Below, in pieces: positions 387-60,300 of a DNA stretch of 64,000 bases. The DNA comes from Heterotrichella gracilis (lineage: Eukaryota; Sar; Xanthophyceae; Tribonematales; Xanthonemataceae), in the NCBI GenBank assembly GCA_032358255.1, contig JAULBX010000003.1, positions 310,001 through 374,000 of the forward strand, given 5' to 3'. Every line of letters starts with the position of its first letter. Positions within the stretch are counted from its first letter, which is position 1. A program made the position numbers and the translations under genes. The notes below the pieces were generated by a model. The model was not told where the DNA came from. It saw only the letters and a list, made by a program, of their open reading frames with translations, and did no database searches.

Positions 387-3300
387 TCACAGCGTTCCAG
401 GGGGGACGACGCGCGCGTGCGGGGGGTAGGACTCCATCACTTCAGAGGCCGCCAGCTGGCGCTCAGCCACCTCATATGCCTGCACCTCCTCCAGTGCCTG
501 CTGCGCCTCGACCACCCCTCGCACCGCCTCATCCATCGCCTCCCTTGAGTCGGCAAACTTGGAACGCTGCTTGGACAGGCGGGCAAAGGCGGCCAAGGTG
601 TTGCGCTCGTGCTGCTCTTGATCCTGAGAACAAGGGCTTTTGTTAGGGTTTATGTCTAGGGTTGCTTGGCGATTTGCATAACATGTTTAGGGTCAGGGTT
701 CCTGGCATCGGCATACTTGGCGTAGCGCAACCCGTGTATTGGGTTGGGACCCAATGGGTGAATGCTTGTGATCTGACCCATGTGATGCAACGCAACCGCA
801 ACAGTCATCCCCTGCCGCATTCAATGGATCTGGTCCAATCGGAACAGTGACCTGTTAAGGGTCGAATTTTATTTTAGGGTTCAGGGTTTACAGTTATGGA
901 CGTGGTTGCAACAGCAGCTCACGCGAACACACCAAGCATGACTCACCGGTGGAATCGGCGGGAGCTGAGGCACCTCCATCCCCACAGCAGCCAGACCCCT
1001 CCCACCACCACCACCACCGCTGCCACCACCACTCCCACTCCCACTCCCGCTGCCAGCAGTGCCGCTAGACTGCTGGCGCTCCAGGCGGGCAGCGTGAATG
1101 CCACGTGGGGGGTATTGCGGTCCGCTGGAGGAGGGTCCAGAGGTGGTCCCCCCCGACGCCCGGCGCTTGAAGCAGGATTTGGGGGCGGTGGGGGTGCCGC
1201 ATTTGCCCTTCTTGGCCCGCACGCACACCTGCAGGGGGGGGTGAGACACAAGCATTGGGCTCAGTAGGGGAGGGCGCATTTGCCTCATGTTGCACAAACC
1301 CAGGGGTTGGAAGTCAGTGGGGGTGCCGCACCACATCGCCCTTTCTGTCCCAACATGGTCCTACACGCTCCGCCCCAAACCCTATATCCACCGGCCTAAA
1401 CCCTACCCGCGCACCTCGCATCGCAGCATGTTGCACACCGCAGGTTTTAATCTGAGAAGACCCTAACTTCGTCTTTCTGAATACCCTAAATTCCTCCTCC
1501 AAACCCTCCACCCACCTCGCATCGCGGCAGGTGCCCTTCAGATTCCAGCTCTAGGTCTAGAGGGGCCGGGCGAGGGGGTGGGGGGCGGGAGAGGCTGTGT
1601 GTGGTGGTGGTGGTGGAGGTGGGGGTGGCGGCCCCACCGGTGGGGGCACGTGGGGCGGTGGCCAGCGCACCTGGAGGGAGGGGAGGGGGTGGTTGGGGGT
1701 GGGCACGTGGGTGGTATGGGCAGGTTGGTTGGGGTTTAAGGCTGCAAAATGTTTTCAGGTGTCCACCACCACCCCTTATGCCCCCACCGGGTATACTATA
1801 GTCACTGCAGCGCCCGGTCATGGTGATGGGGTGCAGATGGGGCTGGAGGAAGCTTCAGTGGAGAGTGGAAGGAGGTGCCTCTGGCACACTTGATCCAGAT
1901 AATAGGCTAAATAGGGTTTTGGGTGGTACGTTGCAGGAAAGGTGTATGCCAGGCATGAAAGCAAAAAGTGTCCACCCTGCCGGATTCGGGTGGGTGTGAG
2001 CGATCCAGCTGCTGCGCTGTGCAGGGCTAAATCCCCGGATTTGTTGTCCATATGACCTTTCACCGTCCACCACACCCAGTACCACACATTTCCCTGCACA
2101 TTTCCACCATGGCATCATCCTGTGGCCACCCACAAACCATACCCACGCACAGCACAAGATTGGAAAGGGTTAGAAGGGATGCAAGAAAGTGTAAACAGTC
2201 GGGAGTGAAAGAAAGAATCCACTCATTTCCCCGCATGAGGTTATTTTCCAAAAACCTGTGCCATCGCCAATCCCTGGTCCCCACATGCCCCCCACCAGTT
2301 TGGCCCCCCATGGCGGACCACCGCCCACACCCGCATCCCACACGCACCATAGGGTGAGCCAGGTGCAATAAAAAGCCAAAAAGGTTGGTGTTCCACGGTT
2401 CCACTGGAAGGGCCTGACCGGTGACCCCACCCACAGCACTCAAGCATGCTATCCCAGCACCGACGGCGGCGGGACCTAAGTCTGCTCGGTTTCCCGCCTG
2501 AACCGTACGACCCTCTGCCACAACCACAACGGCCCGGCCTCCGCCGAGCCGCCGTTGTTGACCACCGCCTTGCTTGGGACACGCTATCCACATACTGGGA
2601 TGGACCAAACAGGCCAATCAGCAGTTCACGAATTTTGCCTCCACTCGGATGACAGCCAGACGGTACCCTGGCCGGCGACTCATAGTAAATTTCCGAGGGT
2701 TATATGGGTCGGGAGGTCGGGGGTTCGACTCCGGACTAGCGGGTGCCTTTTTTTGCTTTTTGGTGGAGATTTTGTTTATGTTTTATGAGGCCAACGAAGA
2801 GTTAACTGCCTGCCTTTGCACACCTTATCAAGGATATAATGGTTTTGAGCCACAGAGCAAGGTTCACTGCAAAGGGTACTGACAAGAGCTATCATTTCCC
2901 ACCAAACCCTCACATGGGGTGCCCAATAGCAGCAGCACCCAAACAAAGCTTTCGACCCCCTCACAGGGTGGTGCAACAAGAGCAGCACGTCTCAACTCCA
3001 CCGCGCATCTCACGCACAACCATACACCCCATTCACACCCCTACACAACAGGACTTACGGGTTTAGAGTTGGCCTTTGCCACGCCACCCCATGGCCCACC
3101 AAGGGGCATACACTCAAACCAACACCGTCCCACCCCACCTATTCTGCAATCACAAGAAAGCCTCAAGAACCTGCCACGCTCCCCGCAAATGCAACGCCCA
3201 GGCTATGGTGCAGCATGACCGGTGACCACCACAAACCCCACAGACCCTAACCTGTGACCACCACAAACCAAATGCACCTGACCTTCCCACAGCCCCCACG

Positions 3301-6300
3301 CTATGCAGCGACTCCGCTATTTAAGGGTTTGGGGTTAAAGGGTTTGGGGTTTCTTACCGTGGGCCCCGTGCTGTTCAGCGGCTCCCACTATATATAGTGT
3401 TTAGGACTCTATGGTTTAGGGTTTAGGGGTTTCACCTTGCGCGCGCGCCCCCAAATTGTGCAGCGAGTCCCCCGCAAAGGGCCGCCCCATCCCCGCAGCT
3501 GCAGAGCCCGATGACCTCCCCTCTGCGTGGTTTTCACCCACAGTACCCCCCCTGCCGGCTGCGGCCATGGCGCGCAGGCTGCCTGGGTGGGGAATGCGGC
3601 CAGTGTCTGCAATATGGGGAATTAATCCTTAGGGTAGTTTGCAAGCGGCCGTAAAACTCAAAGGGTTTACAGGGTTGCACCATCAAGTGCCTGTATGGCG
3701 CCTGTCAAGTGCCTCTACAATTCTGCTATGTGGTTGTGTGTGCACCCCACGACCCACAACCCACAACCCACAACCCACAACCCAGAGGGGCAGCCGCACC
3801 CGCTCGACCCTCCACTGCGAACCCTAAATCCCCAGCACCCACCTGCGCCTGCCTCCTTCACTCCCTTGTCCCCCTTCCTCTTTTTCCCTTGGCCGCCCTC
3901 CCCTGCACCACCCGCGGCGCGCTTGTCCCCCGCTGTGGCTCCGCCCCTGTTACTCCCCCTAGGGGTTTCAGCGCTGCAGTCCACCCGGCGAAGCCCTGAA
4001 TGGAAAATGAGCAAAGCAGGAGTCAAACTCTCCAGGCGGAAAACACACATGGCGTTTCAGCCGGCTAGGCAACAGGTAAAATTCTTAATTGAGGCTTTTA
4101 AAAAGCGTCAACAGGGAGCAAACCCATGGTTCACTAGACTGTTGCAGATGTTGCAACCTCTCTCCATCATGGTAAACAACATACACAAAGCTAAAACATA
4201 AAAGTAATTTACCTGGCTCGGGTCCCTGGGGCAGCCTCAGGTGTGTGAGGAAATCAGTGGACATGGGGAGGGAAGCTGGCTGGTCCATCAGCAGCCCTGC
4301 TTCCCGCCACAACTCGTTGAAGTAGTGCTCCACTTTCTCACATTTTTTCCTGTCGTGAGGCACACACATGTGGGTCGGCAGCTGGAGGGTAAGGGTCTGC
4401 AACTGTGGGGTTTTAGGGCTTGCATGTGGATCAACAGCTGGCAATGCGGACAGCCAAAGAGTGCCATATGACTTCCAGTCCATTGTCAATGTCAATTAAA
4501 ATGCATTGCACTGCGTTGCACTGCATTGCGGGCAGCCATGGCATTGCATTGCCTTCCGCATTTGACTGAAGATAACAAGAAAATTTATAACCTCTCTCTG
4601 AAACCCTGCACCCTCACACTCACCAGCTTGCAACCATTGACGCATAGTACAGCCTGCAATTGTGCCACACCAAGCCCTAAACCCTAAACCCTAAACCCCT
4701 CACCAGTTAGCATCCGTTGACGCGTAGTACAGCCTGCAGTTGTGCCACCCAGCTGCACAATCCTATACCCTAAACCCTAAAACCCTAAACCCTAAACCCC
4801 CTTACCAGTTTGCGTCGGTAGATGCATAGTACAGCCTGCAGTTGTGCCACACCAGCTGCACATCCTGGAGCACATCAGATGTGGATTTGAAGGGGAGGGT
4901 GCCCCAGCCGTCAATTAGGCCCCGGGTCAATTTGGCGCGGATGGTGCCCAAATCCATGGGGGTGGAAACCACCTCAGCGTATTCCGCATAGTCAGGGGAG
5001 CGAGGGTCAACCTGGGGAGGGGCAGGGGGAGTGATTCATGGAGAGGGGAGTGCACAGTGTTTGGGGGGTGGGGAAAGAAGGGTTGCAGCGAAAAGGGGAA
5101 GGGGGGGGGCTACATCATACCTATTCCTAGCCCTCATTGATATTGCATGCAATCTGATACAAAAGCTATACTTGCAGTTATAACGAGGGCAACCCATGTG
5201 GCCCTGGGTAATATGGGGCATGGGGCAGCCCTCGTTACTAAGGATCTGCAGGCAACGAGCACACAAAAAAGGTGCAAGCGACGCCAGACAGAATTGGGTG
5301 GCGCAAGCTGGTGCAAGGCTGATTGCTGATCTGGCTAGTGTGCTGGAATGCATGCAATAATTTTTAACAGCAGACAGACATCAGGGGGTAGTCATACCGG
5401 GTGGTTGAAGGGGATGGAATCTGGGTGGTTCATGGCGAGGGTGAGCACAGCCAGGCAGCGCTGCAGGGGGTGGCCGGACCAAATGTCCCCGATTTCGGGG
5501 ATGTGCCCCCCTTGCTGGGATTTGGCCCCGCCTGTCTTGGGACCAGGTTTCGCGTGGGGCTGGCCGCTGGGGACAGGTTTCGCGTGGGCTTGAGCGTTGG
5601 GGGCTGAAACCTTGGGACCCGGTTTGTTGGGATTTGTTCCCTTAACAAGGGTGGCTTTCTTGGGTGGGTGGGGGGCAGGGGGGGCGGTGGATATTCCCCC
5701 TGTGAGGGGTTGTCCCCCCTGTATTTCCTGCGCCTGCGCAAGCGAGGTGGAATATTGCAACCCACGAGCATACACAGCAGTTGACAGTCCTTGTCGTAGG
5801 CGATTTGGGAGAGAAATGTGTGGAAGGGACCGGGCCTGAAAGGACCTGTGAGCATTTGCTAGAGTTTTTTCGGGGGCAAGGACTTGGCCAACCCCGGGAG
5901 ACGCCTATCATGCTGGAGTAAGGATTTGTTAGGGTATGCCAAATTGAACAGGCGGCAGTTTGTCCATACAAGGAACCAAGTTACGTAACACCAGTCACGC
6001 TGCTAGGGTTTTGCTAGGTAAAAGTTTGGACAAAAAGCCCTACCATGGCCCTGTCGAGGTGCTTTTGCTTCCATAGCTGGTTCACATAGCCCTCCACCTC
6101 GGCGCATGCGTTGAAAATGGTGGACCCCACAAAATTGAACAGGCGGCAGTTGGTCCAAATGAGTACCAGGTCGCGCCACACCGCGGTGAGGCTGCTGTAT
6201 TTCCCATCCCTGAATTTCTTGTGGACGGTCCCCAGGTCCATGGGGTGCTGCAGGGCAGGAATCATTATACTGATAGTAACAGTAATAAGAATATCGATGA

Positions 6301-7829: not shown

Positions 7830-10800
7830 ATGAGGACCGCCTTCACCAGTATATTGGGCCGCTACCAGTCCGCCCGCTACGCAGTAGCCCAGTCCTGCAC
7901 CCTAGTGCTTCATGTGCAGCTGCCATGCCAGTACGCCCCATGCCGGGGGGCGCACGTGCGCCCTGCTGCCAAGCAGCGCGGCAAGCGGACGGCGGTGGGG
8001 AGGGCCAAGCAGCGGCCCGTGGCGGCGGTGGGGGCATCCACTGAGGAGCCCTTGACGGACTACCAGGTGGTGGCTATGGAGAAGGCTCGCCTGGCGCAGT
8101 ACAGCACTGTGGCTGTGGGACAGGTGGGGGTGGGGGTGGGCAGGGAGGGGGAGGGGGGGGGACTGCCTGCATATGGGGAAGGGTCGTGCCCGCAAAGAGG
8201 GTGTTCTGAAAAGCCCTGCATGGATGCGGGGTGGGGCACATATGCATGCATACCAGGCGCCGCATACAGGAACAGAATAGGCTGTGTTCCAAGCAGAGCA
8301 CTGTGTCATGAGCCATCATACATGCGTACTGTCTGCTGCTCACAACACATCCTGTAACACTCCTATGAACACACCTTACTTCACCATGCACATACTTATC
8401 CAAATCCCTGCACCTTGCCTGGACACAGCCTACCGCATGCCTAAGGCGCACACCTTAAACCCTAAGCCCATCATAAGCCGCACTATCTCTTGCCAAAACC
8501 CCGGTCCAAGTAGGCCATGCCCATGCAAACCCTGCCCGAAACCCTTGCACATTGGGCGTGCGTGCCCTTTGTCTTAACCCTCAACTCAAACCCTAACATG
8601 AACCTAACCGAATCCTAAGCCTTGACCAGAATTCTGACTGAAACCCTTGCAAGCAGGTCATGTCCGCGCAAGCCAATTTCGTGCGGGTCAAGCTCACCAA
8701 GCTGGAGCCACAGGATGGGGTCGGCACAAGCGGCAGCGCGACTGAACAGGTGCAACGCAGACCCTACACCCTTAGCCCCAAACCCTAATTTACCCTAATC
8801 AGGATGTGCATCTGCTTCATAGCCAGATTGCGGTGCATTACTGGGTGGCGAGGTGGTATCAGCGGTTTACAAGTATTCATGTGTGTGTGTGTGTGTATTT
8901 TAGTGAAGGTGGGTAATTAGGACTGACCGCTAACTGGCTATTCTGCTGGAACGCATGCAAGTTGAGGTGGGTAACTCCCGTGAAAGGATCCTTATAATTC
9001 TGGCAGAAACCATACAAAATCCTACAAACATGTGTACAAACCCTCGCGCAGGGTTCCGGCCCTGCATCGAGCAACGCGCATCACCAGCACCAACCCCAAC
9101 TGGAGGGCACATCCGGCCAAGGGGAGGAGGGGGAGGAGGGGGGCACCGACACCTCCCTTCCTCCCCGCCGCGAGGTTCTGTGTGTGGTGCGTGCGCTGCT
9201 GAAGAAAGTGAAGCAGAGCGTGCTGGTGGGGGACTGGGTCAAGGTGGTGGCCATCGACTGGATGGAGGGCAGAGGTGAGCAAAATACCTTAGACCCTAAA
9301 GCCTTAAACCCTAGAGGGTGGAGCAGGGCGTGCTGGTGCGGGTGGTGACCATCAACTGGATGGAGGGGAGGGGTGCGCACACACATATCCTAAACCCTAG
9401 ACCTTAAAGCCTTATGCCCTAGAGGGTGGAGCAGAGCGCGCTGGTGGGGGATACGGTGAGGGTGGTGGCAATTAAAGCATGGAAGGGGGAGGGGTGTAAA
9501 CGTACCCCAAATTCTAAATCATCAAACAATAAACTCCTCTTGGAAATCTAATCAGAAAACCCTTGAAACTGCTAGAATGTATGGAAGTAGGAAACCACAA
9601 AAATAAACCCTGTCCTGACAGGGCACATGGAGCAAGAATGTGCTGTTGGCGCAACATTAGCCCCTTGCCAATACGCTGCAATTATGGCCTTTGCCAAAAC
9701 CTACATTGCTGACCACGCCCCTTGCCAAACCCCCGCAGGCATGGTGGAGGAGGTGTTCCCTCGACGCACTCAAGTGCCCGACCCCCCCGCTGCAAAGTTG
9801 GACAACATGGTGCTGGCATTTGGTCCCCATTTCGCCCGCAAATGTTTGACACATTGTTCATTAGAACCCTTTCCCAACACCCTTGCCAAACCCACACAAT
9901 CCTGACCAAAACCCTTCCCAATACACTTGCCAAACCCATAAAATCCTGACAAAAGACCCTTCCCACAGGTATGGTGGAGCAGGTGTTCCCCCGCCGCACC
10001 CAAGTGCCCGACCCCCCCGCCGCAAATGTGGACCATGTGGTGCTGGCATTTGGGGCCGAGGCCCCTCCATTTGAGCCCGCAAATGCCACCCGGTATCTGT
10101 TGGGGGCCCACGCCTCGGGCCTGCCAGTAACAGTGATCATCAATAAGGCGGATCTGGTTCCTGCCCAGCGGCTTTCAAGTATCGTAGAGGAGGTGAGTGG
10201 CTGCAGGGTTTAGGGTTTAGGTTCTATGGTATTTTTGAATGTGATCATTGACAAGCCGGACCTGGTTCCCTTACCAGCGGTTGTCGAGCATTGTAGGAGG
10301 TGTGTGTGTTTGTGGTTTGGGGTCTGCAAGAGATGTGTGGAGCGCACATTCTACACGACTATTGCATCATTTTAGGGTGGAATTGAGCTAAGTTTTTCGA
10401 GGTCCATGCTTCACAACAGGGGAACAGCATGTGCGATTCCCCGTTGCAGCTGCTTTGCATTCCCATCTTCATTTCTACGACATTTCCCCCCTTGTGCAGG
10501 TGACTGGGTGGGGATACGAAACCATCCCGGTGAGCGTTGTCACTGGCCAGGGTTTGGACGCGCTGGAGAAAACCCTGGAGGGCAGGGTGTCCATCGTGGC
10601 GGGGCCCTCCGGGGTGGGCAAATCCTCCATCATTAATGTACTCCGGGGCAACGTGATTGCGCCCCCTGAGTACCACCACTACAACCTAGGGGGGGAGGCG
10701 GAGTTGGGGGATGGGGAGGGCGAGGAGGGCATCGACGAGGGAGGGGCGGAGGAGGGGAGGGGAGGGGGTCAAGCAGATGATCGCAATGGGGATGGGGAGG

Positions 10801-12403
10801 TGTCCGCTTCCGGGGCTGATGTGGTGCCCAACTATGTGTTCCAGGTAATGGCTCTTTATATAAACGCTCTGGGGGATAGTGCCCACGCCGTTGTAGCGTT
10901 CTTCTTAAAAAGAGTAGGTAGTTGTGTGCATTGTGGGAATGCAGCCAGATGAGCAGTTACAATCTGACATGAGTGGCGCCAAGCAGTTCCATCCTGTCAC
11001 TGTAAGGTCATTGTCTGACTTGCACAACGTAGTTCTGTGCTGGTCGCTTCTCTCGACCGCGCCACCCCCAACCTTGCCACCCAGCACCCACACGTGTTTC
11101 CGTCCCTCAACTGCTCTGCCATCCTCAACCACCACCATCCACTACCCACCCGCAGGCGGTGGGCGATGTCCCCGCCCCTTGCCATGGCAAGCACACCACC
11201 CGACACGTCAGCCCTAAACCCTACGTGTAACATAACCCTAATTCAAACCCTAAATGCAGGCTGTGGGCGACGTGTCTGCCTCTGGCCACGGCAAGCATAC
11301 CACCCGCCACGCCAGCCCTAAACCCTACGTATATAAAAAACCCTAACGCAAAACCCTAAATGCAGGCGGTGGGCGATGTGTCTGCCTCCGGCCACGGCAA
11401 GCACACCACCCGCCACGTCAGCCTGCTGGAGCTGCCAGGTGGCGGCCTGCTGGCAGACTCCCCAGGGTTCAACCAGCCCGACATAAACATCCCCCCTGCT
11501 GAGCTGGCGCAGCATTTCCCGGAGATCCAGCGGGTGCTGGAGGAGGAACGGTGGGTGGGGCACTCTATTTTGTGGGTGTGTCAGGGGGTGGCAAGCTGTT
11601 AGGGTGTCATGCTGTGATTGCCTGTACAAATACGCTTACCATTGACAGTCATGATGACAACATTGAAAAAACACTGCACGAGTTCTCTTGCACAAACTCT
11701 CAGGCTGAGCTCAGATGTGCCCGAAGAGAGGCTGTCCTCGTGAGTAAGCCACAACCGGTCGTCAAAGCCCAAACGGACATTACAATACAAACCCTAAGCT
11801 GATCCTAAAGCCTGGACACTGCAGGTGCACATTTTCTAACTGCCAGCATCTGGCGGAGCCCGGGTGCGCGGTGCGGGAGGCCGATTTTCATCGCTACCCA
11901 CTGTATGTGCAAATCCATGCCGAGCTAAGGGAGCTGGAGGATTTGGAGCGCAAGCGGGCCCTCAATAAAAAGGCCCGCGAGGGGAATTTGAAATTCAAGG
12001 CGGGCGCGGGGGGCCGGCCTGTGGCGGAGGCGCGGCTGGAGACAAAGAGTCACCGGCGGGTGTCCAGGAGATCGGTAGGTTTGGGAAGACCCTTAAGCCT
12101 AAAACCCGAACATAAACTCCAAGTGTGTCTGGAGGCGCGCCTGGAGACCAAGAGCCACTTGTGACACCCAGCACCTTTTAAAGGGCAGAACCCTGCAGGG
12201 GCTGTACCAATAGCTTGTAAGGCCTCCACTGGATGGTTCTGGCACCCTCTTGCATGGCGTGCTGGGCCCTGGCTGCACAGAGCATAGGGTTCAGGGTTGC
12301 ATGCTGGAGGGTTTTAGGGTTTGCGTCGTGTTTTGCGCAGGTGAAGCAGAAGGTGCGTGACCTGCTGGAGGAGCTGGAGGAGCAGCAAGGGGAGGACAGG
12401 TAG
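7830..12403 (+). CDS. RsgA, small-subunit ribosome biogenesis GTPase
   Basis: Eight exons in phase: 7830-8123, 8657-8749, 9052-9274, 9969-10192, 10500-10844, 11366-11550, 11825-12074, 12341-12403; 558 residues. The order of GTPase motifs is circularly permuted as in RsgA/YjeQ: NKAD (G4, residue 262), GPSGVGKSS (P-loop, 313), GKHTTR (G2, 404), DSPGF (G3, 424). An N-terminal OB-fold segment (residues 99-200) precedes them. A zinc knuckle follows with Cys456, Cys461, His463 and Cys469 (C-x4-C-x-H-x5-C). The family hydrolyses GTP during late 30S maturation. The Arg/Ser-rich, acid-poor N-terminus suggests organelle import, probably to the chloroplast (inference). An acidic Gly/Glu insert of about 60 residues separates the P-loop from G2. 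The C-terminus is a charged helix absent from bacterial forms. Confidence 0.94.
8911..8956. repeat. Dispersed repeat, right half (copy)
   Basis: GGACTGACCGCTAACTGGCT and CTGCTGGAACGCATGCAAG match the right half of the dispersed repeat. It lies in an RsgA intron just after a short GTGTGT microsatellite (8880-8895). Confidence 0.65.
9300..9495 (+). repeat. Two exon-edge copies in an RsgA intron
   Basis: The end of exon 9052-9274 (OB-fold strands) recurs at about 9315-9373 and 9420-9492, each retaining the AAGCAGAGCGTG-like and CATCGACTGGATGGAGG-like cores in degenerate form. CCCTAAA/CCCTAGA runs lie between copies. The copies have mutated donors and are probably not spliced. Confidence 0.75.
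9737..9835 (+). repeat. Near-complete 5' exon copy in RsgA
   Basis: This matches the first 94 bases of exon 9969-10192 with only a few changes. It has an intact CCGCAG acceptor, stays open in the same phase, and is followed by a GT (9831-9832) that would keep the frame. It could be a silent copy or an optional exon adding about 31 residues. Confidence 0.75.
10234..10305 (+). repeat. Copy of the RsgA G4 exon end
   Basis: This resembles the last 65 bases of exon 9969-10192, the region encoding the NKAD motif. It starts with GTGATCATTGACAAG and ends in a GTAGGAGGTG donor-like stretch. A TTTAGGG tract separates it from the real exon. Confidence 0.7.
11150..11320 (+). repeat. Two copies of the RsgA G2 exon start
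   Basis: The acceptor plus about 55 bases of exon 11366-11550 recur at 11150-11212 and 11255-11316, both with a GCAG acceptor and a GGCAAGCA-ACCACCCG core. Each is followed by CCCTAAACCCTA repeats. The period is about 106 bases. The third copy continues into the true exon. Confidence 0.85.
12128..12166 (+). repeat. Copy of the RsgA zinc-knuckle exon end
   Basis: This repeats the GGAGGCGCGGCTGGAGACAA-like stretch found near the end of exon 11825-12074. It lies in the last intron after a degenerate CCCTTAAGCC/CCCGAAC tract. Confidence 0.65.
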
Positions 12404-41432: not shown

Positions 41433-44400
41433 TCACGACGACCACACGTCCTTGTGGTACCGCCCCCCATCCGCCAGCCGCTTGACCGCCGCCTCTGCCT
41501 GGCTGGAGCTGCACCCCGCCACCCGCTGCGCCATGTCGTGCAGGGCGCGGTGCACGTCCCTGGCCATGTGGCCTGCATCCCCACACACGTAGAAGCATCC
41601 GCCACGTTGGAGCAGGGGCCACACCTGCGCACAAGATCAGGCGCACAAGTGAGATCCCGGGAACAGGCCACAAGCAGTGGCTGAGGCAATCCGCACGCAT
41701 GTACTATTAGTCGATGCGACCTGGTGGTAATGGGTGGTTGATGCACGTGCTTAGCGCCGCTGGAGACACCGGTGTGCAGCCCATAGACCACCCACCACCA
41801 GCCGCACATCCTGCATTCCACCCCACACCCTCCCCCCACCCCACCAACCTCATCAGCCAGCCACAGTGTTGCACAAAGTCCCTGGTAGGCCCATCCCATC
41901 CCATGACAAGGCCACATGCAGCGCCACTGAGGGCACAGTATGCAGCCAGTGTCACCCACCCACCCACCCACCCACTCCAACTCCCATCCTGTCCATCACC
42001 CCACCTCCTCCGTTCGACCCACACACCCTCCCCCCCAACCACCACCCACCTCATCAGCCTGGCAAACCATGTGGTGCTGCACATAGTCCTTGGCAGGCCC
42101 ATCCCGCGAGAAGGCCACGTGCAGGGCGGTGATGGCGCCACTGGCCAGCGCCCCCTCCAGCTCCTCCCGGTACAGGTAGTCTTGCGCCTGGTGGCGGCAG
42201 CCGAAAAACAGCACGGCGGGGCCAAGGGCGACACCTGAGGGGGGCGAGGGTGGGAGGTAAATGGAAGGATGAGGGTGTGTGGGGAGCAGCTGTGGGTGTG
42301 TGGGGAGCAATGGTGGTGCTGGGGACCGCTGGGTGTCTGCACCATCATTTGCTCGATAAGGCTCATGGGTGCCAGAGCCCACATGCACAACATCTTCCCC
42401 TGCCTGTGATGCCATCCCCACACAAGCACCACTCCATCCCCGGCTTCCCACCCACCCACCTTTCTTCAGCAAGGCCGCTCGCTCCTGCAGAAATCCCCGG
42501 AAGGGCGCCAGCCCGGTCCCCGGGCCGACCATCACCACCGGCGTCTCGGCATCTACCGGTAGCTTGAATATCGATCTCCGCACAAACACAGCCACCCTCT
42601 CCCCCACCGGTACCTGCGCCAGGTTTTATTCAACCTCAAATGGTTGTGGTTCCTTACCAATCATTGTGGACCCCCAGGATCATGCTTCATTTTTGGAAGC
42701 TGTGTCGCGTTTCGCGTATGAGTGCACACCTCCTTTTTGCAAGAATGTTTCCCTGTTCCAGCGTGTCCCCTATGATTCATAATAATTTGCATTATTTATC
42801 TGTTTCACATCATCCCATTTTCCCTTCATGTCATTCTTACCTGGGCCAGGTAGGTGGAGGCCACCCCCTTGTGCACCCTGCCTGTGGGGGTGGTTTCTTG
42901 CACCACCGCACACGTGACGTGGATGGATGTGGGGTGCAGGCAGGGGGAGGAGGAGATGGAGTACCAGCGGGGCTGGAGTGGGGGAGCCACTGCGCCGAAA
43001 AAGGCGCCTGCAAGCAGGGAAGGAGGGGGCGCGTGCAATCAGTGCCATGCTAAGTGAATGCAACCACGCCCAATGCCCAGCAACAGGCCCTTCCAAGGAT
43101 AATTTCCAGGGATGTACACAATGTATGCATTATACGGCATTCATACATGCATAACAGGTCCGGTGCTACAACTGCACAGCAACACAATGAACAATGCTCA
43201 TGCCATTGCCCCTAACCATGTGTCTCCTGTCCCCAAAACCCCCTTACGTAGGGCTGAAGCAGCCAACCTTATGCTCCATGGCCTCCAGCACGCTGCGGTG
43301 ACCCTGAAACCTTGTACATCCACCCCTGACCAAAAAACCTTACCTAGCGTTGGCGCTGCCAAGCTGAAGGGCTCTAATACCCTTAGCAGGCTGCAATGAC
43401 CCCAAAACCCTGAACAGTCCCTCCTGACCAAAAACCCTTACCTAGGGTTGGCGTGGCCGTGCTGGATTGCTCCATAACCTCCAGCAGGCTGCTGTGACCC
43501 CATAACCCTAAACAGTCACTCCCACCCCAAACCCTTACCTAGGGTTGGCATGGCCGAGCTGAAGTGCTCCATGACCTCCAGCAGGCTGCGCTTGCCCCCC
43601 ACCACCCACTCCTGGTACTCCTCCTTGCCCTCGGGGAGGGACAGGCGCTGCAAGCGCGCGGCTTGGGCGGGGTCGGTGGCAAAAGCAGCCAGGGCCTGGA
43701 GGGAGGCGCGGTGCGGGGGCGATTGGAGGTCGGCGTGGCGGGCCAGCGCTGCCTGGAGGGTGATGGGGCCTGCGGGGGGGGGGGGTGATGGGGTCTCTCC
43801 CAAGCTACCTTGCAATCTAATCCTGACAGGAGTTTGCAATTGCAATCTAATCTTGACAAGTGTTTGCTTTTACAAGATTACACGATTCTACATTTTACAA
43901 GATTACAAGATTCATTGCATTGTAAGTCATGAATCTTGTAATCTTGTAAAATTGTACATGATAATGACCCATTTTGCAGCATATACTGTATCCCCTGAAC
44001 CTAAATCCCCTGAAACATACAGTACCCTGCCCACCGCCCTCACCTGGGAATGGCTCCGCCAGCTGGTCGGGGTTGCCAGGTGGCAGGCTGAGCTGCAGCA
44101 CAGTGTGTAGGGGCTGACCCAGCAGGCGTGCGGCACATGCCACCGCCTCTGGCGTGTTTTCCGCATGCACCGCCACGTGGTCCCCCGCCTCGTAGCGTAT
44201 GTCTGACCCACTGATGTCCAGCTCAACATGAATGCAGGACCTGGAGATGACAGGTGATGGTTATGAACACATGGATGGCAATCAATTGAACCATCATGTG
44301 GTACAAACCTGGAAAGTCTTACTATAATAAAGTTTGCTCCCTACTCGTCTATGGTCCCAAATTGGCATATGTTGACCTTGGGTACTGCACATTTCCCAGT

Positions 44401-46080
44401 TGATTCGCTTGAACAGCCCCAACCGACGGCGAGAAAGGGTCCATGGAAAGGGTAATCATGTGCAAGGATAGCTGTACTGCGGAATCGCATGTCACCGAAT
44501 GACTATAACCACTCCCGCACCTGTCAGACCCAGGCGCATGCAGCTCCCTGCGAGCCGCAACCCTGGCCGCAAAGGGGTGGTGGTGGTCCGTGCCCCCGCC
44601 CCCACCGCTGCCAGCCACAATGAACGCAGCCTTGGTTTTTGCGCTGGGTTTGAGGGTCTCCACGTGGTACGCGGGGACTGCCTCGGGGGCAAGGATGGCG
44701 CTGGCGTCCTGCTGCTCCTGTAAGAGGGGAGATGCCAAGGGTTTAGGGCTATCATTTTGGATGTAGGTTTTAATAATGCAGCCAGGATGGCGCTGGCGAC
44801 CTGCCGTTATAGGGGCGAGTCAAGACTTTAACGCTTGCGGTTTGTTTGAGGGTCTCCAAGTGGTACATAGGGACTGCCTTGGGGCCGACTGGTGCCATTA
44901 CCCCCGCTCCAGCAAGCCCAAGCAATGGGTAGAGGCATAGTACCATGCTGAGGGAGGAATACCACGTGCCTGTGGAGTGAACAGCGACAGCTTGTCCAGG
45001 CTGGCAAACAGGTCGGTGCACCACTTTTCGAAATCGTCATCTATGTCGTTGTCGTCGTCCCCATCCCCCCTTGGAGCCACAGGCGTGCCCCCCAGCTCCT
45101 GCAGCTGGCTGTGCACCTTCTTGCCCACAGCGCAGAAGTGCTCGTACTGCGTGTTGCCCAGGCCAAACACTGCGTATTGCACCCCCTGCAAAGGGCGTGG
45201 GGTTAGGGTTTAGGCTACTGCGTGTTGTCCAGACTGAACACGGTGTACTGCACCCCCTGCGTATGGCGTAGGGTTTAGGTTTGGGGTACTGCAAAGGGTT
45301 TAGGGTTTAGAGATGTTCGCAATGGAGCCGCACCACCACTGATGATGATGGGCATGTGGCCCACACAGGCGCCCTCTACCCTACACCGTTGACACCCTTA
45401 ACCAGAGCTGGGACATAAATATTCCGTTTTGACCCTACATGGATCTCGACCCTCCTTGAACGTGAGGCAAGGCAAGCCAAAAGAGGAACACCACCAACAC
45501 CAGCACCATATCACAGTATCTTTGAAATGGTTCTCAAGACAAAGGGAACCCTGCAGAAAGAGCGCCCTGCACATGCCTGGCACACCATGACTAAGCATGC
45601 ATTGCATGTTAATACCTTGAGCTCTGTATCAATGCCTGCTTCGGCTGTAGTGTTGAGCCACGTGCAGAACTCGGCAGCATCGTCCGTGGGCTCACCATCC
45701 CCGTACGTGGCCATTATGAAGATCACCAGCTTGAGATCAGGCAGGGCCTCTGGTGCGTTCAAGTTCTCCATGTTGGAGGTCTCAAACACAGCTGACTTGC
45801 CATATCGCCCACTCAGCTCCCCCTTAAGCTGCTTGGCAAAGCGCTCCGCTGTCCCTGTTTGGGTACCGTAGTAGACGCACACTTTCTCCCTTCTGTCCAC
45901 GTTTTCTGCAGCCTGGGATGGGGCCTTGGCAACCACTCCCCCAACCACAGCATTGCCGAAGAGGATCCCAAAGTGGCGAAGGGCTAAAACCACCAGGCAC
46001 AGGGACAGAAGCACGGCCGATGCCAATCCAAGAGAAGGAAGGAAGGGCTGCGTTTGTAACGCCTCGAGGCTTTCGGCCAT
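41433..46080 (-). CDS. NADPH-cytochrome P450 reductase
   Basis: Nine exons in phase: 45616-46080, 44970-45185, 44521-44717, 44044-44240, 43539-43769, 42841-43007, 42460-42613, 42050-42234, 41433-41624; 667 residues. An N-terminal ER anchor (about 18-41) is followed by the flavodoxin domain ([12 protein letters not shown] at 71-82, [22 protein letters not shown]), a connecting domain, the FAD motif RWYSISSSP, the NADPH-binding motifs [12 protein letters not shown] and FFGCR...DYLYREEL, and the C-terminal VWSS with the conserved Trp. It passes electrons from NADPH through FAD and FMN to P450s at the ER. The length matches the family. The intron after exon 44970-45185 appears to use a GC donor (CAG/GCACGT) because no GT donor keeps the frame. 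Several introns contain exon-edge copies. Confidence 0.96.
41845..41945 (-). repeat. Copy of the reductase NADPH-domain exon end
   Basis: This repeats about 95 bases of the donor end of exon 42050-42234, including CTCATCAGCC, GCACA-AGTCC and AAGGCCAC-TGCAG cores, and a GTTGGTGGGG donor-like edge. It lies about 200 bases from the true edge, with CCCACC-rich DNA between. Confidence 0.8.
43242..43500 (-). repeat. Three tandem exon-edge copies in the reductase gene
   Basis: The donor end of exon 43539-43769 recurs at 43242-43304, 43338-43401 and 43437-43500. With the true edge at 43534-43595 this gives four units with a period of about 97 bases. Each keeps CCTTACCTAG-GTTGGC or a close variant (so each carries a potential donor) and a CTCCAGCA-GCTGC core. 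CCCTAAA/CCCTGAA runs fill the spaces. Confidence 0.9.
44780..44910 (-). repeat. Copy of the reductase connecting-domain exon
   Basis: This resembles part of exon 44521-44717 (TTTGAGGGTCTCCA-GTGGTAC and GGGACTGCCT-GGGGC cores), diverged and interrupted. It lies upstream, in gene sense, of the true exon. Confidence 0.75.
45215..45310 (-). repeat. Copies of the reductase exon 2 start with heptamers
   Basis: The acceptor and first bases of exon 44970-45185 recur at about 45222-45262 (ACTGCGTGTTG and TGCACCCCCTGC cores) and in shorter form near 45275-45292, separated by TTTAGGGTTTAG runs. Confidence 0.8.
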
Positions 46081-47436: not shown

Positions 47437-50400
47437 ATGACCAGGAGCCAGTCAGCAGCGCTCTTTGCAGTCCTGCTGCTGGGGACCTGCCTAGTGCTCA
47501 CCCCAGTGGGTGCGCAAGACCCCAGCAGCGATGACGCCCCCACCACCGCCACCACCACCGCCTCAGCAAACACAGTAGGGGTGGAGATATGGGACGACGA
47601 AGAGGACGAGGTGGCGCCTGCGCCCACCCAGCCCAGCAGGCCAGCTAGTAGCAGCGGTTCGACCTTCACCCGACCCACTTTCTTCAACCTGGGGAGTGCG
47701 ATGCCGGACCGCAGCCTGGTGCCCGAGTTCTGCGGGTTCACCTTCCTGGTCTTCTTTGTGGTGCGCCTCCTAGAAACCCCTACACCCTGCGCCGAACCCT
47801 TGGCCCTGGTCACTGCGCAAAACCCCAATATAGCCCTGAGCATGCCACCCGGCAGCGGTGATTTCAGCTTCACCCAGCCATTTTTTTTGCCCTAGCTGGG
47901 GAATGCGGTGCCTGACCGCAGCCTGGTGCCCGAGTTCTGTGGGTTCACCTTCCTGGTCTTCTTTGTGGTGCGTACGCTCCCCCCGAATGATTATAAACCC
48001 TACGCGGCGAGTCCTGCCTAAAACCCTAATATATGCCCACCGGCAGCGGCAATTGCAGCTTAATCTTGCCATTGTTTTCCTGCAAGCTGGGGAGTGTGGT
48101 GCCTAACCGCAGCCTGGTGCCCGAGTTCTGCGGGTTCATCTTCCTGTCTTCTTTGTGGTGCGCACGCCTCCCCAAAAAAACCCTACATCCTGGGCAGAAC
48201 CCTTGGCCCTGGTCCCTGTGCGGCAAGCCCTGCTGCGCCTCTGTGCAGATGTATGTGTATGTGCATGGCCAAGCAGAAGGACAAGAACGTCGCGCGGCAG
48301 TTGGCCTGGGATTATCACTGCCATGATCCCTGTGTAAAGGACCTAAAGACTCAATTTCCAGGCTTTAAAAACCCTAAACCTGACAATTTTCAGTAGCTAA
48401 TACCGTACAAAATTGATTGTCGAAATCCTAGTTTTGAAACCTAAACCTTGACCCTGAACCTAGGCGCAGGTGCACAAATTCCTGGGCAAGCGAAAGAACG
48501 AGAAGATTGTACTGAACCCTAAACCGTAAACCCTGGTGCAGGTAAACGTGTTCCTGGGCAAGAAGAAGAACGAGAAGATTGCGCTGCAGTGGGCGCGGAC
48601 CTACGTGGGTGAGGGAGCTGTGTTTGAGAAGAACTTCAGCCTGCTGGGCACAGACAGCGCGGAGGGGGAGGTGCGATACCCTTAGGGTCCTGCCTCAATT
48701 TCACGGGCTTGCTGTTGTCATGCCGTGAGGTTTTACAAGTGATAGACCAGTGCCAGAATGGTCCTTGAAGGAACTTCCTGTATGTAAAGGGGGTCTAGTT
48801 TATGGGCACGACGATATGCATGCATCACTTGTGCTGGTGGTGACTACTAGTAAACCGCCTGTAGGGTTTTGCTAGGGTTCTCCTGTATACAACACAGTCC
48901 ATTATTGTTGAAAACAAATGCTCTGGTTTCCAGGTGCTGCTCCAGGAGTCCCCCTGCCAGTTCAAGTTCTACGCCAGCGGCAGGCGCTACTGTCAACAGA
49001 TGCTGGCAACAATTGAGCTCAGGCGCAGGCAAGTCAAACTGCATGCACCCTGGTTGCAACACCATGTGCTACCATAAGTCCATACCATTGCCGTACATGG
49101 TTACCTCATCCCCACATCGCTCAACATCATCCCCACTTGCGTCAGCGACATCGTGTCCAAATGGGTGCATTGCCGCATCATCCCACCATGACCCATTCCA
49201 TATCACGCCGCAAATGATGGGCACATCACCTCCACACGATCACCACATCATTTTCAGGCTGCGGCCCAGCACCCGCCCAGCACCCACCCACTACTTTAAA
49301 ACCTAAACCCTGAGCCTGGGCCTCTCCCCCGCAGGCAGGACATCATCTCCACCCTGCTGGGCTTCATCCTGCAGCCCAATACCCTAATCCCTAAACCCTC
49401 CCCCTACCCCCCCGCAGGCAGGACATCATCTCCACCCTCCTGGGCTTCATCCTCTACCGCGAGGACCGGATCGACATCGAGGTGCAGATGAACGAGGGCA
49501 TGGCACCCATCGTGCTGGCCATCGCCAACGCCAAGACTGCCAAGGACATGCAGCGCAACCTCACCGACCTTGAGACCTTTGCCAAGAGGGTGGACATCAG
49601 CCGGGAAAGGGCCCCCGGGTGGCCCGAGAAGCTTGTGGTGCTGTCTGAGCAGTCGTCCACCTTTTATGACATCATCGTGGAGCCGCTGCTGGACCAGGTG
49701 TGCAGCATATTGTACATGCATTTTATTTCGATATATTTAAACATGCACCCTTTGTGACCTCATTGTGGAGCCGCTCCTTAACCAGGTGAGCATTGCAATT
49801 GCCATTACATGCACTCCATTGTTTTCTTACTTTTCCAACTTTGGAGTCTAGTACCATTTTCATATAATGTATTGACATGCATTCCCGCTCAAGATGAGCA
49901 ATCACACCTGTACATGCGGCGCCAGGCAGATGTGCAACCTATGGTGAACAACATTTTGTCAAGTATCTTACTCGCATATACCCTTTTGCTGCCGTTACTC
50001 ATGGTTTCATATATGGACGGCGCCAGTCCACACCATGCCCCACTCTGAATTGTATCATTTATAATCACGACCCTTTTCCTGCCCTCCCCAGGTGTTCAGG
50101 TCTGAGTCCTTTGCCCCCCTTGCCAAGTACTTCAACTACATGCACATATCATCGGAGTTTCCGCTGGGCAAGCACAGGAACATCATGCGATTCAGCTTCA
50201 ACCTGCCGCCAGTGCACCGGATGGAGGTATGGCACCAGCGTGCTCTCTGTATTTCAGCCGTTTTATATATGTGTTACACATTTTGATTTTCATGTTTGTC
50301 TGCTTTCTCTTTCTTCTTTCCTCTTCTTGGGATTTGCTGACAAAATACCTCCAATATATTTACAATCGCAGCCAATGTATTCACAATCACAGCATATTCA

Positions 50401-51327
50401 ATGTATCAACTTGAATATCAATGTATTTTAAATCACAGCATATTCAATGTATTCACTTGAATATCTTCATATTGTACTTTTAAGTGATGTTATTTTTCCC
50501 CACCTCGATCAGGACATCTCCAAGTTCATGCTGGCAGTGACTATTCTGAATTTATTGTATGTATGTGAATATCTTCATATTTCTATTTCCATTTTTTAGT
50601 TACATATTAACAATGTTTATTATTTGTCACCTCGGTCAGGACATCTCCAAGTTCATGCTGGCAGTGACGGTGCTGATCGACGCGGTGGGCGCCTACAAGA
50701 TGACGCCAGAGCAGAAGAAACGCGCTGAGAAGGCCCGCCAAGACGTTGAGCTCAAGGCGTTCAAGGAGAGCCAGCGCGACCGCGAGGAGGCGCTGCAAGA
50801 AAAGAAGATGCAGAAGAAGCTGCAGGAGAAGGTGAGGGAGGGGGGGAGGGCTGCTCTTACCAACCCCCTTCTCCCACCACCCTTGTCCTTGTCCCCACAC
50901 CACCACCCACCCTCGCAGGAGAAGCTGAAGAGGCTCGACCTCGCCTCCTGGGCCAATGCGGAGGGGAAACGCCACTCTGATCACCACAGTCTTCCCCCGT
51001 CCCTTTATCCGTCATTCTAATCATCTCCCTCGTCCCCATCAACCCAACCCCAATCCCCACCACCAACAACTCTCGCAGGAGAAGCTGAAGAAACTGGACC
51101 CCGCCTCAAGCACGAGACCGGAGGATTAGGGTTTGCTGCTCTAACCAACACCCTTTTTTTATATCCCCACCACCTCCGTTCCTGTCCCAACCCTAATTTC
51201 TGCCACCCCACTACCCACGCAGGAGAAGCTGAAAAAGCTTGACCCCGCTTCCCGCGCCAAGGCGGAGGAGAAGCGCGCCAAGCTGGAGGCCAAAAGGGCA
51301 CAAAGGGTGAAGACGGTGAAGATGTGA
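47437..51327 (+). CDS. CCDC47, PAT-complex ER chaperone subunit
   Basis: Seven exons in phase: 47437-47760, 48542-48670, 48934-49028, 49418-49697, 50092-50226, 50640-50831, 51223-51327; 419 residues. A signal peptide (about 1-26) and an acidic lumenal segment (WDDEEDE) are followed by one transmembrane helix across the exon 1/2 junction (FTFLVFFVVNVFLGKKKN). A cytosolic domain then has RQDIISTLLGFILYR, an acidic/amide stretch and a Lys/Glu-rich coiled coil (EEALQEKKMQKKLQEKEKL). This is the DUF1682/CCDC47 layout. In animals CCDC47 with Asterix forms the PAT complex of the multipass translocon at the ER. The intron after 49028 has a consensus GC donor (AG/GCAAGT). Copies of exon edges occur in almost every intron. 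Confidence 0.92.
47885..48170 (+). repeat. Two copies of the CCDC47 exon 1 end
   Basis: About 75 bases ending in TTCTTTGTGGTGCG recur at 47892-47972 and 48085-48163, about 195 bases apart, each retaining the donor-like GTGCG. CCCTA-rich DNA lies between. Only the first, contiguous copy joins the signal-peptide exon. Confidence 0.92.
48245..48520 (+). repeat. Two copies of the CCDC47 exon 2 start
   Basis: Diverged copies of the acceptor and first 50 bases of exon 48542-48670 lie at about 48248-48305 and 48465-48515 (TGGGCAAGCGAAAGAACGAG in the nearer one). A CCCTAAACCGTAAACCC spacer precedes the true exon. Confidence 0.85.
49328..49375 (+). repeat. Copy of the CCDC47 exon 4 start
   Basis: An almost exact copy of the CCCGCAG acceptor and about 40 bases of exon 49418-49697 lies 85 bases upstream, followed by CCCTAATCCCTAAACCC. 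It has an equally good acceptor. Confidence 0.92.
49743..49792 (+). repeat. Copy of the CCDC47 exon 4 end
   Basis: TGACCTCATTGTGGAGCCGC and AACCAGGTGAGC repeat the donor end of exon 49418-49697, with a stronger donor (GTGAGC) than the true one (GTGTGC). Confidence 0.85.
50505..50585 (+). repeat. Copy of the CCDC47 exon 6 start
   Basis: It repeats the CTCGATCAG acceptor and about 30 coding bases of exon 50640-50831, plus flanking A/T-rich intron, with a period of about 126 bases. Confidence 0.88.
50918..51130 (+). repeat. Two copies of the CCDC47 last exon start
   Basis: Copies of the CGCAG acceptor and GAGAAGCTGAAGA-GCT-GACC core lie at 50918-50972 and 51078-51129. The second reaches a TAG after about 17 codons, so use of its acceptor would give a shorter C-terminus. 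Confidence 0.88.
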
Positions 51328-52503: not shown

Positions 52504-52635
52504 GTTAGGGAAAATTCTCCAAGACACCCTAAAAAGGTCAAACCAGACCTGCAAATTTCTTCCCTTAACTGTTAAGAGAGTTGAGATTTGCAGGTCTGAT
52601 ATGACCCTTGAAGGGTGCTGAGCATCTTTCCTAAC
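52504..52635. repeat. 132-base foldback (MITE-like or hairpin RNA)
   Basis: Two arms of about 62 bases are near-perfect reverse complements around a small loop at about 52567-52572 (TTAACTGTTAA). The inner arm includes a perfect 12-base match (AGACCTGCAAAT with ATTTGCAGGTCT). The outer ends read GTTAGG and CCTAAC. Pairing stops abruptly at both outer ends. This fits a small foldback transposon (MITE) or a microRNA-type precursor. Confidence 0.8.
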
Positions 52636-57399: not shown

Positions 57400-60300
57400 T
57401 CACGGCGACAGCGTGACCTCCCCATACCACCCACTCCCCGCCATCAGCAGCTCCCCCCCCGACCCCCCCGCCTCGAGGGCGCACCCTGACAGGGTCCCCA
57501 CCCCACCCCCCAAAAAGGTCACGCGCGCAACCGCCCCTGCCACCACCCCCGCCTCCATGGGCCCTGCAGCACCAAACTGCGCCCTGGCTGTGCCTGTGGC
57601 CCCTGTGGGGAGGTCCCCCAAATTGAACCTCAGGCGGCGCTGGCGGGCTGCCCACTCGGCCTTGGGGGCTGCCTGTGGGAGGTTGGTGGGGAGGGGTGAG
57701 GGAGATATGCAGCGGTAGGTTGGTTGCATGTGTGGGGGAGGGGTCCAGGGCGACGTGTCACATGGAGCAGGTTTGGCAAATGGTATTCAGGAGGAGGGTG
57801 CACGACATGGTGGGTTCATCCCACTGACGGCGCACTGGATATTAGTGGGGTGGCAGTGGGGAAAGGGGGTTGCATAGCTGGTGGACGGGATTAGCATGAT
57901 GGCTACCAGCCACAAGGCATTCTTAGATGGAAATATACTTCCTATAAAGATTTCCTCTCCCCCAACCCCACACATGGGCACTACCCTCCCTGCCAGGGGC
58001 ACACTAACATAACTAACACACTATTACCTAGCATATTAATGTACCCCTGTAGTACATTAGTTTAGTAAATTAGTTTAGTACATTAATGTACCCCTGTCCC
58101 CGCCCAACCCCCACCCCACACACATGCACCACCCTCCCCTATTCCTCACCTTGACAATCTCCCCCATGTCAAGCGGCAGGTCCACATCGATGGCCACCTG
58201 GCGCAGGCCCCCACGCACCCCACCCCCCACCGCCCACCCCACAGCCACCAGTGCCTGGGTGGAGGTGGAATTCAGCTGGACGGTGAGGCGCAGCACCAGG
58301 GGAGGGGGGATCGCCACAGCGGGCAACCTGTGGGCGGGATGGGGATGGGGGTGAGTGTATTACATAAGCACATGCATTCAAGCAGAACAGCCTGATTACG
58401 ATTCACGGTAAACAACAAATTTGGACCTGGCCATTTGCAATCTTGAGCTTCAAAGCGCGCAACGTTTCTGACGATGGGCTGAGTCTTGCCTTGCCCCATG
58501 AGTAGAATGTCTGACTGCTAATTTTGCTAACGCGGGAATGCTTGTAAGCAAGACATTTACGCAACTAACAAGTTGTCAATCTCGTACCCTCCACCTTTTG
58601 TGCCCTACCTGTGTGTGAGGAAGGCCATGCCGTAGCCGGATTGCCCCGCAAACCCCACTGGACCACCTTAAACCCTAATCGGTACCCACCTGTATGTGAG
58701 GAAAGGCTTGTCTTGGGGCATGCCGTAGCCCGACTGCGCACCAAACAGTCCTGCGGTGTGGGTAGCGGATGCCGCCGCCCGGTTGAGTCGGGCCACCCTG
58801 AGCACAGCCTTGGACAGATGGGACACGCCGCCATGCAGCCTGTGGGGAAAGGGTGGGTGAGTGGGGAGGGTGGGTGTGTGGTGCGGTGGGGTTGCGCCGG
58901 TGGGATGCGATGCACGCGGGTGTGTGGGTGGTTGGGTTTTGGTGTGCAATGGGAACGCGTGTTGTGTAAGGGTGAGGGGGGCACATACGTGTGCGCTGTG
59001 TTTGGCCGTAGCTGTGCGTACAGTCCACTAGGGTACCACCTAAACCCTAAAATCACCCCAGCCCGCGCACCTGAACACCGCCGGCTGCTTGACAGCTCCC
59101 ACCCCCACCCGCTTGACCACCCTCCCGTCCGTGCCGGCGCGCACTAACACGTCCCCCTTGAACTCCCCCCGCCACACCTCCACCAGCTGGAGCGCATGGT
59201 GGGGCTCCACGTACTGGATGACGGGGGGTGCCGGCTGGGGGGGTGGTGGGCGGCCGTACATCCCCGGCTGGGCGTACTGCGGTGGGTATTGTTGTTGCGC
59301 GTATTGTGGGGGGTACAGTTGCTGCTGCTGGGGAGGATATTGGGGCTGGGAAATGGGGTTTCCAAAGGGGTCGAAGGCTGGTGCTGCGGTGAGTGGGGCG
59401 CCCAGGGGCGCAAATGGGTCGGCCTCCGCGGGAGCAAAGGGGTCTGCAGATGCGGGCCCAGATGCCACGGGCAGGGCCTCCAGGGGGGCCAAATCTGCAA
59501 AGGGGTCCAGGGGGGCGGGGGGTGGTGGGGGTGCTGCTGGGGCGGGAGCAGGGGCGGGGACGCCGGCGAAGGGGTCGGAGGTGACTGCAGGAGGGGTGGG
59601 TGGTGGGGGGTGAGTGGTGTGTGGGTGGTGGGGGTGGCTGCACGAGGCATGGAGGAGGAGAACCCACCATGCAGGTGGTGGTGGGGGGTATTAATGGGGT
59701 GTTGCATGTTGCAAGAGGGGAGGAGGATACCCCTCATAGTCCAACAAATTACCCTAGAGGGCAGATGCAGGACCCCAGGGTGCACGAGGCCCAGGCGCCT
59801 AAACCTACCCACACGCCACGCCAAGCAGCACAAATCCCGCAACCACTACCGACACCAATCCCCAGCAGGACACCCTCCCACACCCCCCATGTGCCATGCC
59901 GCTATTCCCCACAAGGCACAACCCACAAGCCCCCAAACACACCCTCACCTGCAGGCGCAGCAGCCACTGCGGCCGCCCCCCCCAGCCCAGCCAGTAGAGA
60001 CACATCCACTGCCCCCATCGCTCCCGAACCCCCTGCCTGCGGCTGCGCCTCCAAGGGGGCAACTCCCATGCCAAACACCTCAGCGGGGAGGACAACCTGC
60101 TCCACGGTCAGCAGCTCCGGCTCCTCCTCAACATCCCTACACAAAAGTTTTGACTAGGGTTTAGATTTCCTCCACATCCCAACACAGGAGTTCTAAGGGT
60201 TCCTGCCCGCCAGAGGGAAATGGTCAGTGTGACGGACAGCAGTACATGACGTGCGACCACTATCATCATGCCACCTCTCCTTCAACCCTTTCACCACCAC

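Follow-up and report, generated by a model that had tools for sequence, protein, structure and literature searches.

Partial copies of exon edges, many with telomere-like heptamers between them, in introns of a 64-kb stretch of the Heterotrichella gracilis genome

The DNA considered here is a single 64-kb window on contig JAULBX010000003.1 of Heterotrichella gracilis (Xanthophyceae; positions 310,001 to 374,000), which is the basis for everything that follows. Its GC content is about 55%, and it carries ten modelled genes and two neighbouring F-box paralogues. Many of the introns hold partial copies of the adjoining exon edge, often accompanied by telomere-like heptamers of the CCCTAAA/TTTAGGG type. 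The gene models come from a dynamic-programming gene finder trained on the window, with several exon ends and the whole of the TML gene placed by hand; together they predict 42 introns, amounting to 17.6 kb (about 17,614 bases), with a median length of 383 bp. Both F-box genes are excluded from the counts of 42 introns and 84 edges, and the labels HMG, BNR and TML are provisional, taken over from an earlier reading of the same DNA (the original prediction). When six predicted proteins were scanned against Pfam, domains were found in five (RsgA GTPase, alpha/beta hydrolase, P450-reductase domains, CCDC47 and bromodomain) and none in the four-helix protein. Predicted PSAG resembles photosystem I subunit V chains in PDB (best E 1.3e-38). 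Five gene models are thus supported by domain continuity and a sixth, PSAG, by its PDB match. Two introns are modelled as GC-AG, one in CCDC47 at 49029 and one in P450 reductase at 44969.

The presence of exon-edge copies in introns is a real observation. The 100 exon bases beside each of the 84 edges were aligned to the adjoining intron, and a copy was accepted if it outscored 60 shuffles as well as each of the 41 other introns. A significant direct copy lies beside 23 edges (11 donor, 12 acceptor) in 20 introns, about half of those modelled, distributed over seven genes; with the introns reversed, one edge passes. An unanchored self-scan (3192 windows, score at least 60) gave 143 direct and 13 reverse matches, and recovered the same families. 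F-box A, examined by a separate comparison, is an eighth gene with copies. All eight genes named in the original prediction therefore have them, in direct tandem as it held, and the three that it set apart do lack them: by the edge test PSAG, HMG and BNR have copies in none of their 7 introns, against 20 of 35 in the other genes (Fisher p=0.009). Its dimensions need correction. Where it gave one to four copies of 30-90 bases with a period of about 65-200, there are one to three extra copies per edge, with some 24-143 exon bases aligned, and neighbouring copies are spaced about 71-255 bases apart, apart from one exception at about 375-383.

We use ‘seam’ for the bases that separate the working splice site from the outer end of the most distant copy, not counting the exon copies themselves. 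Copies and seams together occupy 4,972 of the modelled intron bases (28%; an upper estimate, as some seams are long), and introns with copies are longer than those without (median 404 versus 287, p=0.015). By eye, the units fall into two classes: those with heptamers in the seam, which have their intron-side breakpoint some 5-15 nt away from the splice site, and plain ones, whose breakpoints are broader. Exon breakpoints differ as well, since the bromodomain copies start at -61 and at -49. Some units (hydrolase intron 4, P450 reductase intron 8, CCDC47 introns 1 and 5) include tens of bases of intron; thus it was unspliced sequence that was duplicated.

Telomere-type repeats are internal to this window well above chance: 60 exact heptamers, with 7 expected. 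Of these, 31 are in the 17.6 kb of intron, 29 in 33 kb of unmodelled sequence, and none in coding sequence. With at most one mismatch, heptamers account for 359 of the 2674 seam bases (13.4%), compared with 155 of 4932 (3.1%) elsewhere in these introns and 295 of 7710 where introns lack copies; none of 5000 circular shifts attained the seam value. For exact heptamers the figures are 133 of 2674 seam bases and 35 of 4932 in the rest. The heptamers that the original prediction placed between copies are therefore enriched in the seams; at this tolerance they occur in 14 of the 20 copy-bearing introns, and so are not obligatory. Approached from the heptamers, the association reappears: 17 of 36 multi-unit intron clusters are flanked by a direct duplication, a proportion that exceeds those at randomly chosen places (34 of 300, p=1e-6) and at places of matched distance from a splice site (80 of 432, p=2e-4). 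Among intron clusters of all sizes, 25 of 75 are so flanked.

Copies match their exons at 64-97% identity, plus one weak match at 62%; the duplication events were therefore spread over time. A neutral copy, compared with an exon whose changes are mostly silent, is expected to give a ratio of nonsynonymous to synonymous difference (pN/pS) of about one half. For 36 aligned copies the observed values are pS 0.280, pN 0.136 and pN/pS 0.49, with 180 gap positions. From the ratio and the gaps together, the copies look dead, decaying neutrally next to an exon that is under constraint; the same figures do not fit a tandem or alternative exon duplication whose copies are under coding constraint. The weak match in CCDC47 intron 3 (score 41.5) is kept in this set and dropped from the seam analysis. 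Thirty-one of the 36 copies were taken as reaching the edge; omitted from the test of splice-site retention are the RsgA intron 7 copy, both P450 reductase intron 2 pieces, the first CCDC47 intron 1 acceptor copy and the weak CCDC47 intron 3 match. GT or AG survives in 30 of the 31 when the site may be displaced by 1-2 nt (p=0.0035), and in 26 under strict placement (p=0.28); the expectation, taken from the first two codon positions in these copies, is 24.1.

The duplications in this window are biased to exon edges. A random segment of 60-150 bp in these genes would straddle one edge, rather than fall within an intron, with a chance of 0.25-0.51. A hand count from the self-scan found 23 edge families and about two intron-only duplications (9865-9965 and 50344-50483); in this count secondary copies in the four-helix intron 1 and CCDC47 intron 1 arrays belong to their own families; a copied fragment from the inside of an exon (5941-6196) is left out, as is the weak pair at 6422-6568, and heptamer and plain units are pooled. 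Intron-only duplications were simulated with the same lengths and ages and, because both copies are free to change, 1.6-2.0 times faster evolution; measured on the 22 introns without detected copies, detection was 0.93-0.79, with false positives at 0.01. The probability of so few was put at 1e-11 to 1e-4 in an earlier simulation, drawing on introns already holding copies. Because intron-only duplications are nearly absent despite this power, survivorship alone is insufficient to explain the edge bias, and is rejected within the window. Edge copies stand far above the random-placement null and heptamers are enriched in seams; within this window the refutation that the original prediction had offered therefore failed.

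The F-box paralogues provide the sole pair among these loci in which an interrupted copy can be set beside an uninterrupted one: A has a 158-nt insert where B reads through. By eye, each of its two units consists of an exon piece of about 36 nt and a filler of about 43 nt, and both contain a CAG and a GGTGAGC-like site. Were the 155 nt between the outermost of these sites removed as an intron, the frame would be kept with one codon added; two TAA codons flank that stretch. The arrangement suggests that heptamers and duplication arrived together, in an exon-like segment previously uninterrupted, as in interstitial telomeric insertion, albeit in one case. Introns can also be gained by tandem duplication of an exon stretch bearing AGGT. 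F-box A may resemble that route, in that its duplicated exon pieces with CAG and GGTGAGC could splice in frame; the other families are unlike it, for each is found at an intron already present, and what is repeated there is the neighbouring exon edge together with its own splice site.

One way to draw these observations together, which we hold with a little more confidence than doubt, is that repair of staggered breaks made microduplications straddling splice junctions, often with telomere-repeat filler, and that these were neutral afterwards. Introns would be lengthened by repeated local tandem duplications at the DNA level, whose two ends straddle the exon-intron junction: one breakpoint would lie in the intron, close to the splice site where heptamers are present, and the other in the exon. 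A staggered break at the junction would leave overhangs to be filled in; a telomerase-like activity would often add telomere-type repeats to the exposed 3' end; and the ends would be joined, giving the order exon edge, splice site, heptamers, second exon edge, old intron. Splicing would continue at the junction still joined to the intact exon, the spare copy would become intronic and decay, and with further rounds the tandem array would come to hold two to four edges. Introns are rich in G at their starts and in C at their ends. Breaks favouring the G-rich strand at starts, and the mirror image at ends, would leave 3' overhangs reaching back into the exon on both sides, which by this proposal would direct duplications to exon edges. 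The anatomy, the neutral decay, the enrichment of heptamers in seams, the edge bias and the one paralogue pair are observed; staggered breaks, telomerase and a reason for the preference of breaks for intron ends are what we infer. Repair with overhang duplication and telomere-type filler would explain why the copies are direct and adjacent, why their length varies and filler sits at the seam, why rounds recur with different exon breakpoints, and why the copies decay neutrally. The recurrent, local, intron-lengthening process of the original prediction fits what is seen here, the copies being direct, adjacent, of varied age and neutrally decaying, in introns that are longer; the telomerase that it invoked, and a reach over the whole genome, go further than the window does. 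A bolder version, which we entertain as a tentative possibility, is that break repair by the telomere machinery (telomerase with C-strand fill-in), favouring intron ends, would be a chief source of intron DNA in this lineage, and would occasionally create a spliceable intron inside an exon, perhaps in F-box A.

Several observations weigh against the repair account. Six of the 20 introns have no seam heptamer even with one mismatch allowed (hydrolase 4 and 5, four-helix 1, P450 reductase 8, CCDC47 4 and 5). Several introns also have degenerate heptamers past the last copy, as judged by eye, and heptamers may therefore predate duplication. The F-box A event sits in an exon-like segment, away from intron ends, and there is a single empty site, F-box B, for comparison. 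No direct sign of telomerase was found, nor does the window offer a test for one. Telomeric insertions, moreover, are described as randomly placed and as rarely duplicating their target in the excerpt of PMC7215372 on which we draw.

Heptamers may have been there already and triggered the duplications: telomere-like runs, G-rich after donors and C-rich and CTAA-bearing before acceptors, would be native to intron ends, where they may aid splicing; being fragile they would break, and repair would duplicate the exon edge. In introns without detected copies, 21 of 44 heptamers do lie within 60 nt of a splice site, where a fraction of 0.34 is expected, although introns without detected copies could carry decayed events. 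Thirteen of the 42 acceptor regions contain CT[AG]A[CT], for which the mid-intron figure is 0.11. Strand bias at acceptors points the same way: on the sense strand within 60 nt of them there are 19 CCCTAAA and 2 TTTAGGG. Within 60 nt of donors there are 21 TTTAGGG and 14 CCCTAAA, adjacent heptamers not being independent in either count. A TTTAGGG ahead of an acceptor would add a spurious AG, and selection may therefore have filtered orientation. What favours joint entry is confined to the comparison of F-box A with B, where heptamers and duplication entered an uninterrupted segment together, and the flank of RsgA intron 5, where by eye no heptamers precede the first copy. A start from native heptamers also leaves unexplained why duplication extends into the exon rather than the intron, and we judge it rather unlikely.

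If tandem duplications arose at random, those straddling an edge would be tolerated, as they leave one good site intact; duplications in exons would be purged, and heptamers would be incidental. The tolerance is a sound expectation, and plain units without heptamers do occur; this scheme, however, predicts at least as many intron-only as edge duplications, where the reverse is found, and does not provide for seam heptamers above shifted controls. It is already disfavoured in the window, and improbable. Could the copies be retained for use, as decoy or alternative splice sites or in splicing regulation? The splice dinucleotides of the edge-reaching copies exceed expectation when a small shift is allowed; under strict placement they do not do so significantly, and the exon parts decay neutrally, so that a retained function seems quite improbable. 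A mobile element with a telomere-like tail, inserting at splice sites with long target duplications, would formally give the same layout of duplicate, filler and duplicate. Once heptamers are masked, two short inter-intron matches are left, both among introns without detected copies (unmasked and with no low-complexity filter there are 11, most containing heptamers by eye); the duplicated length is very variable and some seams have no heptamer. With no body shared between seams, a mobile element or introner was rejected, and we regard it as very improbable.

Table 1. Exon-edge copy families and related features (window coordinates)
Locus	Position	Strand	Description
Bromodomain intron 4	4601..4866	-	donor edge, 2 extra copies; TTTAGGG runs in both seams
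RsgA intron 3	9203..9499	+	donor edge, 2 extra; CCCTAAA-type seams
RsgA intron 3	9691..10085	+	acceptor edge, 1 extra; seam of degenerate AAACCC-type 45-nt repeats
RsgA intron 4	10133..10325	+	donor-edge copy; TTTAGGG seam
RsgA intron 5	11152..11423	+	acceptor edge, 2 extra; CCCTAAA seams; first copy not preceded by heptamers
RsgA intron 7	12020..12158	+	donor-side exon copy ending 21 nt before the edge
Hydrolase intron 1	21131..21456	+	acceptor-edge copy; long seam with heptamers
Hydrolase intron 4	22550..22891	+	acceptor-edge copy including about 55 nt of intron; seam without heptamer
Hydrolase intron 5	23161..23495	+	acceptor-edge copy; seam without heptamer
Four-helix intron 2	28578..28865	-	donor edge, 2 extra; TTTAGGG-type seams
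Four-helix intron 1	28876..29669	-	acceptor edge, 3 extra; seams without heptamer
Four-helix intron 1	30246..30715	-	donor-edge copy about 375 bases off; seam without heptamer
F-box A	35108..35306	-	158-nt insert of two 79-nt units (exon piece plus heptamer filler); F-box B (36830-37345) uninterrupted
P450 reductase intron 8	41802..42136	-	donor-edge copy with part of intron; seam without heptamer
P450 reductase intron 5	43210..43607	-	donor edge, 3 extra, GTAAGG in each; degenerate TTTAGGG-type seams
P450 reductase intron 2	44639..44895	-	two acceptor-side exon pieces short of the edge; one exact seam heptamer
P450 reductase intron 1	45145..45292	-	acceptor-edge copy; CCTAAACCCTAA seam
CCDC47 intron 1	47630..48230	+	donor edge, 2 extra, with part of intron
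CCDC47 intron 1	48243..48594	+	acceptor edge, 2 extra; CCCTAAA seam adjoining exon
CCDC47 intron 3	49287..49453	+	acceptor-edge copy, 97% identity; CCCTAAA seam
CCDC47 intron 4	49658..49820	+	donor-edge copy; seam without heptamer
CCDC47 intron 5	50442..50676	+	acceptor-edge copy with part of intron; seam without heptamer
CCDC47 intron 6	50822..51285	+	acceptor edge, 2 extra; degenerate heptamers, few
TML intron 2	58600..58746	-	donor-edge copy; TTTAGGG-type seam
Additional donor-edge-like family	3294..3436	-	with heptamers; by eye, outside counts
Additional donor-edge-like family	1379..1532	-	with heptamers; by eye, outside counts

Some related features lie outside these families. A bromodomain exon interior is copied into the next intron, short of the edge, at 5941-6004 and 6132-6196 (- strand, period 191). 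Weaker direct duplications are found at or past the 3' ends of the four-helix (27802-28135), TML (57274-57411) and BNR (17041-17156) genes; with them the pattern may reach outside introns. In the BNR gene, two introns share a perfect 32-bp inverted repeat (17869-17900 and 18317-18348). A signal recognition particle RNA gene lies at 2395-2676 on the - strand (Rfam RF00017; 128.9 bits, with the gathering score at 70). A search of a genome contig collection with CCDC47 found no relative. In viral contigs, a search for the pattern of donor plus heptamer gave no matches; nine IMG/VR viral contigs have at least four tandem CCCTAAA units, seven of them with at least ten exact heptamers in the stretch examined.

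The F-box paralogues contain three in-frame TAA codons, each facing Gln in the other copy: 35507-35509 and about 34967-34969 on the - strand, and about 37067-37069 on the + strand. These mark either pseudogenes or recoding; A, with two TAA, and B, with one TAA and a frame shift, may be pseudogenes. A non-standard code in which TAA and TAG specify Gln was considered on account of these codons and found unsupported: the ten corrected models have no internal stop, in part by construction because the gene finder forbids stops. Isolated stops with a flanking coding score of at least 2 (TAG 4, TAA 2, TGA 1) are too few to judge the code, and among the TAA and TAG at least two (48527 and 35509) fall in a heptamer seam or in F-box A. 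The RsgA, hydrolase and four-helix models terminate on TAG.

Among the entries listed in searches of one open-access library, none described exon-edge copies combined with heptamers. Duplications from paired nicks are said to occur in plants, the work being that of Schiml and others in 2016. Elements of the process are nevertheless recognizable in other systems, here known from excerpts of three papers. In mouse and human cells, small tandem duplications arise when CST-Pol alpha-primase fills in 3' overhangs (PMC8355091). The copies described here resemble these in being direct, adjacent and tens of bases long; the duplications there are homology-independent, and the excerpt describes neither telomeric filler nor a preference for splice sites. 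Interstitial telomeric sequences of primates, rodents and the horse likewise combine internal telomere-type repeats with changes at the break site, including direct duplication (PMC7215372). In the horse lineage telomeric repeats enter at breaks, with random placement and simple direct target duplication in 3 of 66 loci, according to that excerpt; here duplication flanks 17 of 36 multi-unit clusters, and it is concentrated at exon edges. We infer that overhang fill-in and entry of telomeric repeats may be coupled in the present case. Direct repeats at exon-intron borders have been tied to break repair by Rogers and Bendich 2025 (PMC11782384); the repeats in that excerpt are of 4-30 bp and flank introns, whereas the exon-edge copies here, of 24-143 nt, lie inside the intron and are accompanied by heptamers.

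The growth of introns, and the origin of new intron DNA, is an old question. In this window about half of the modelled introns bear the record of successive local duplications at splice junctions that were already there, and in many cases a telomere-type scar separates the copies. If this is general, telomere maintenance, break repair and intron evolution would be linked, and the genome of H. gracilis would be one in which the process might be followed strain by strain.

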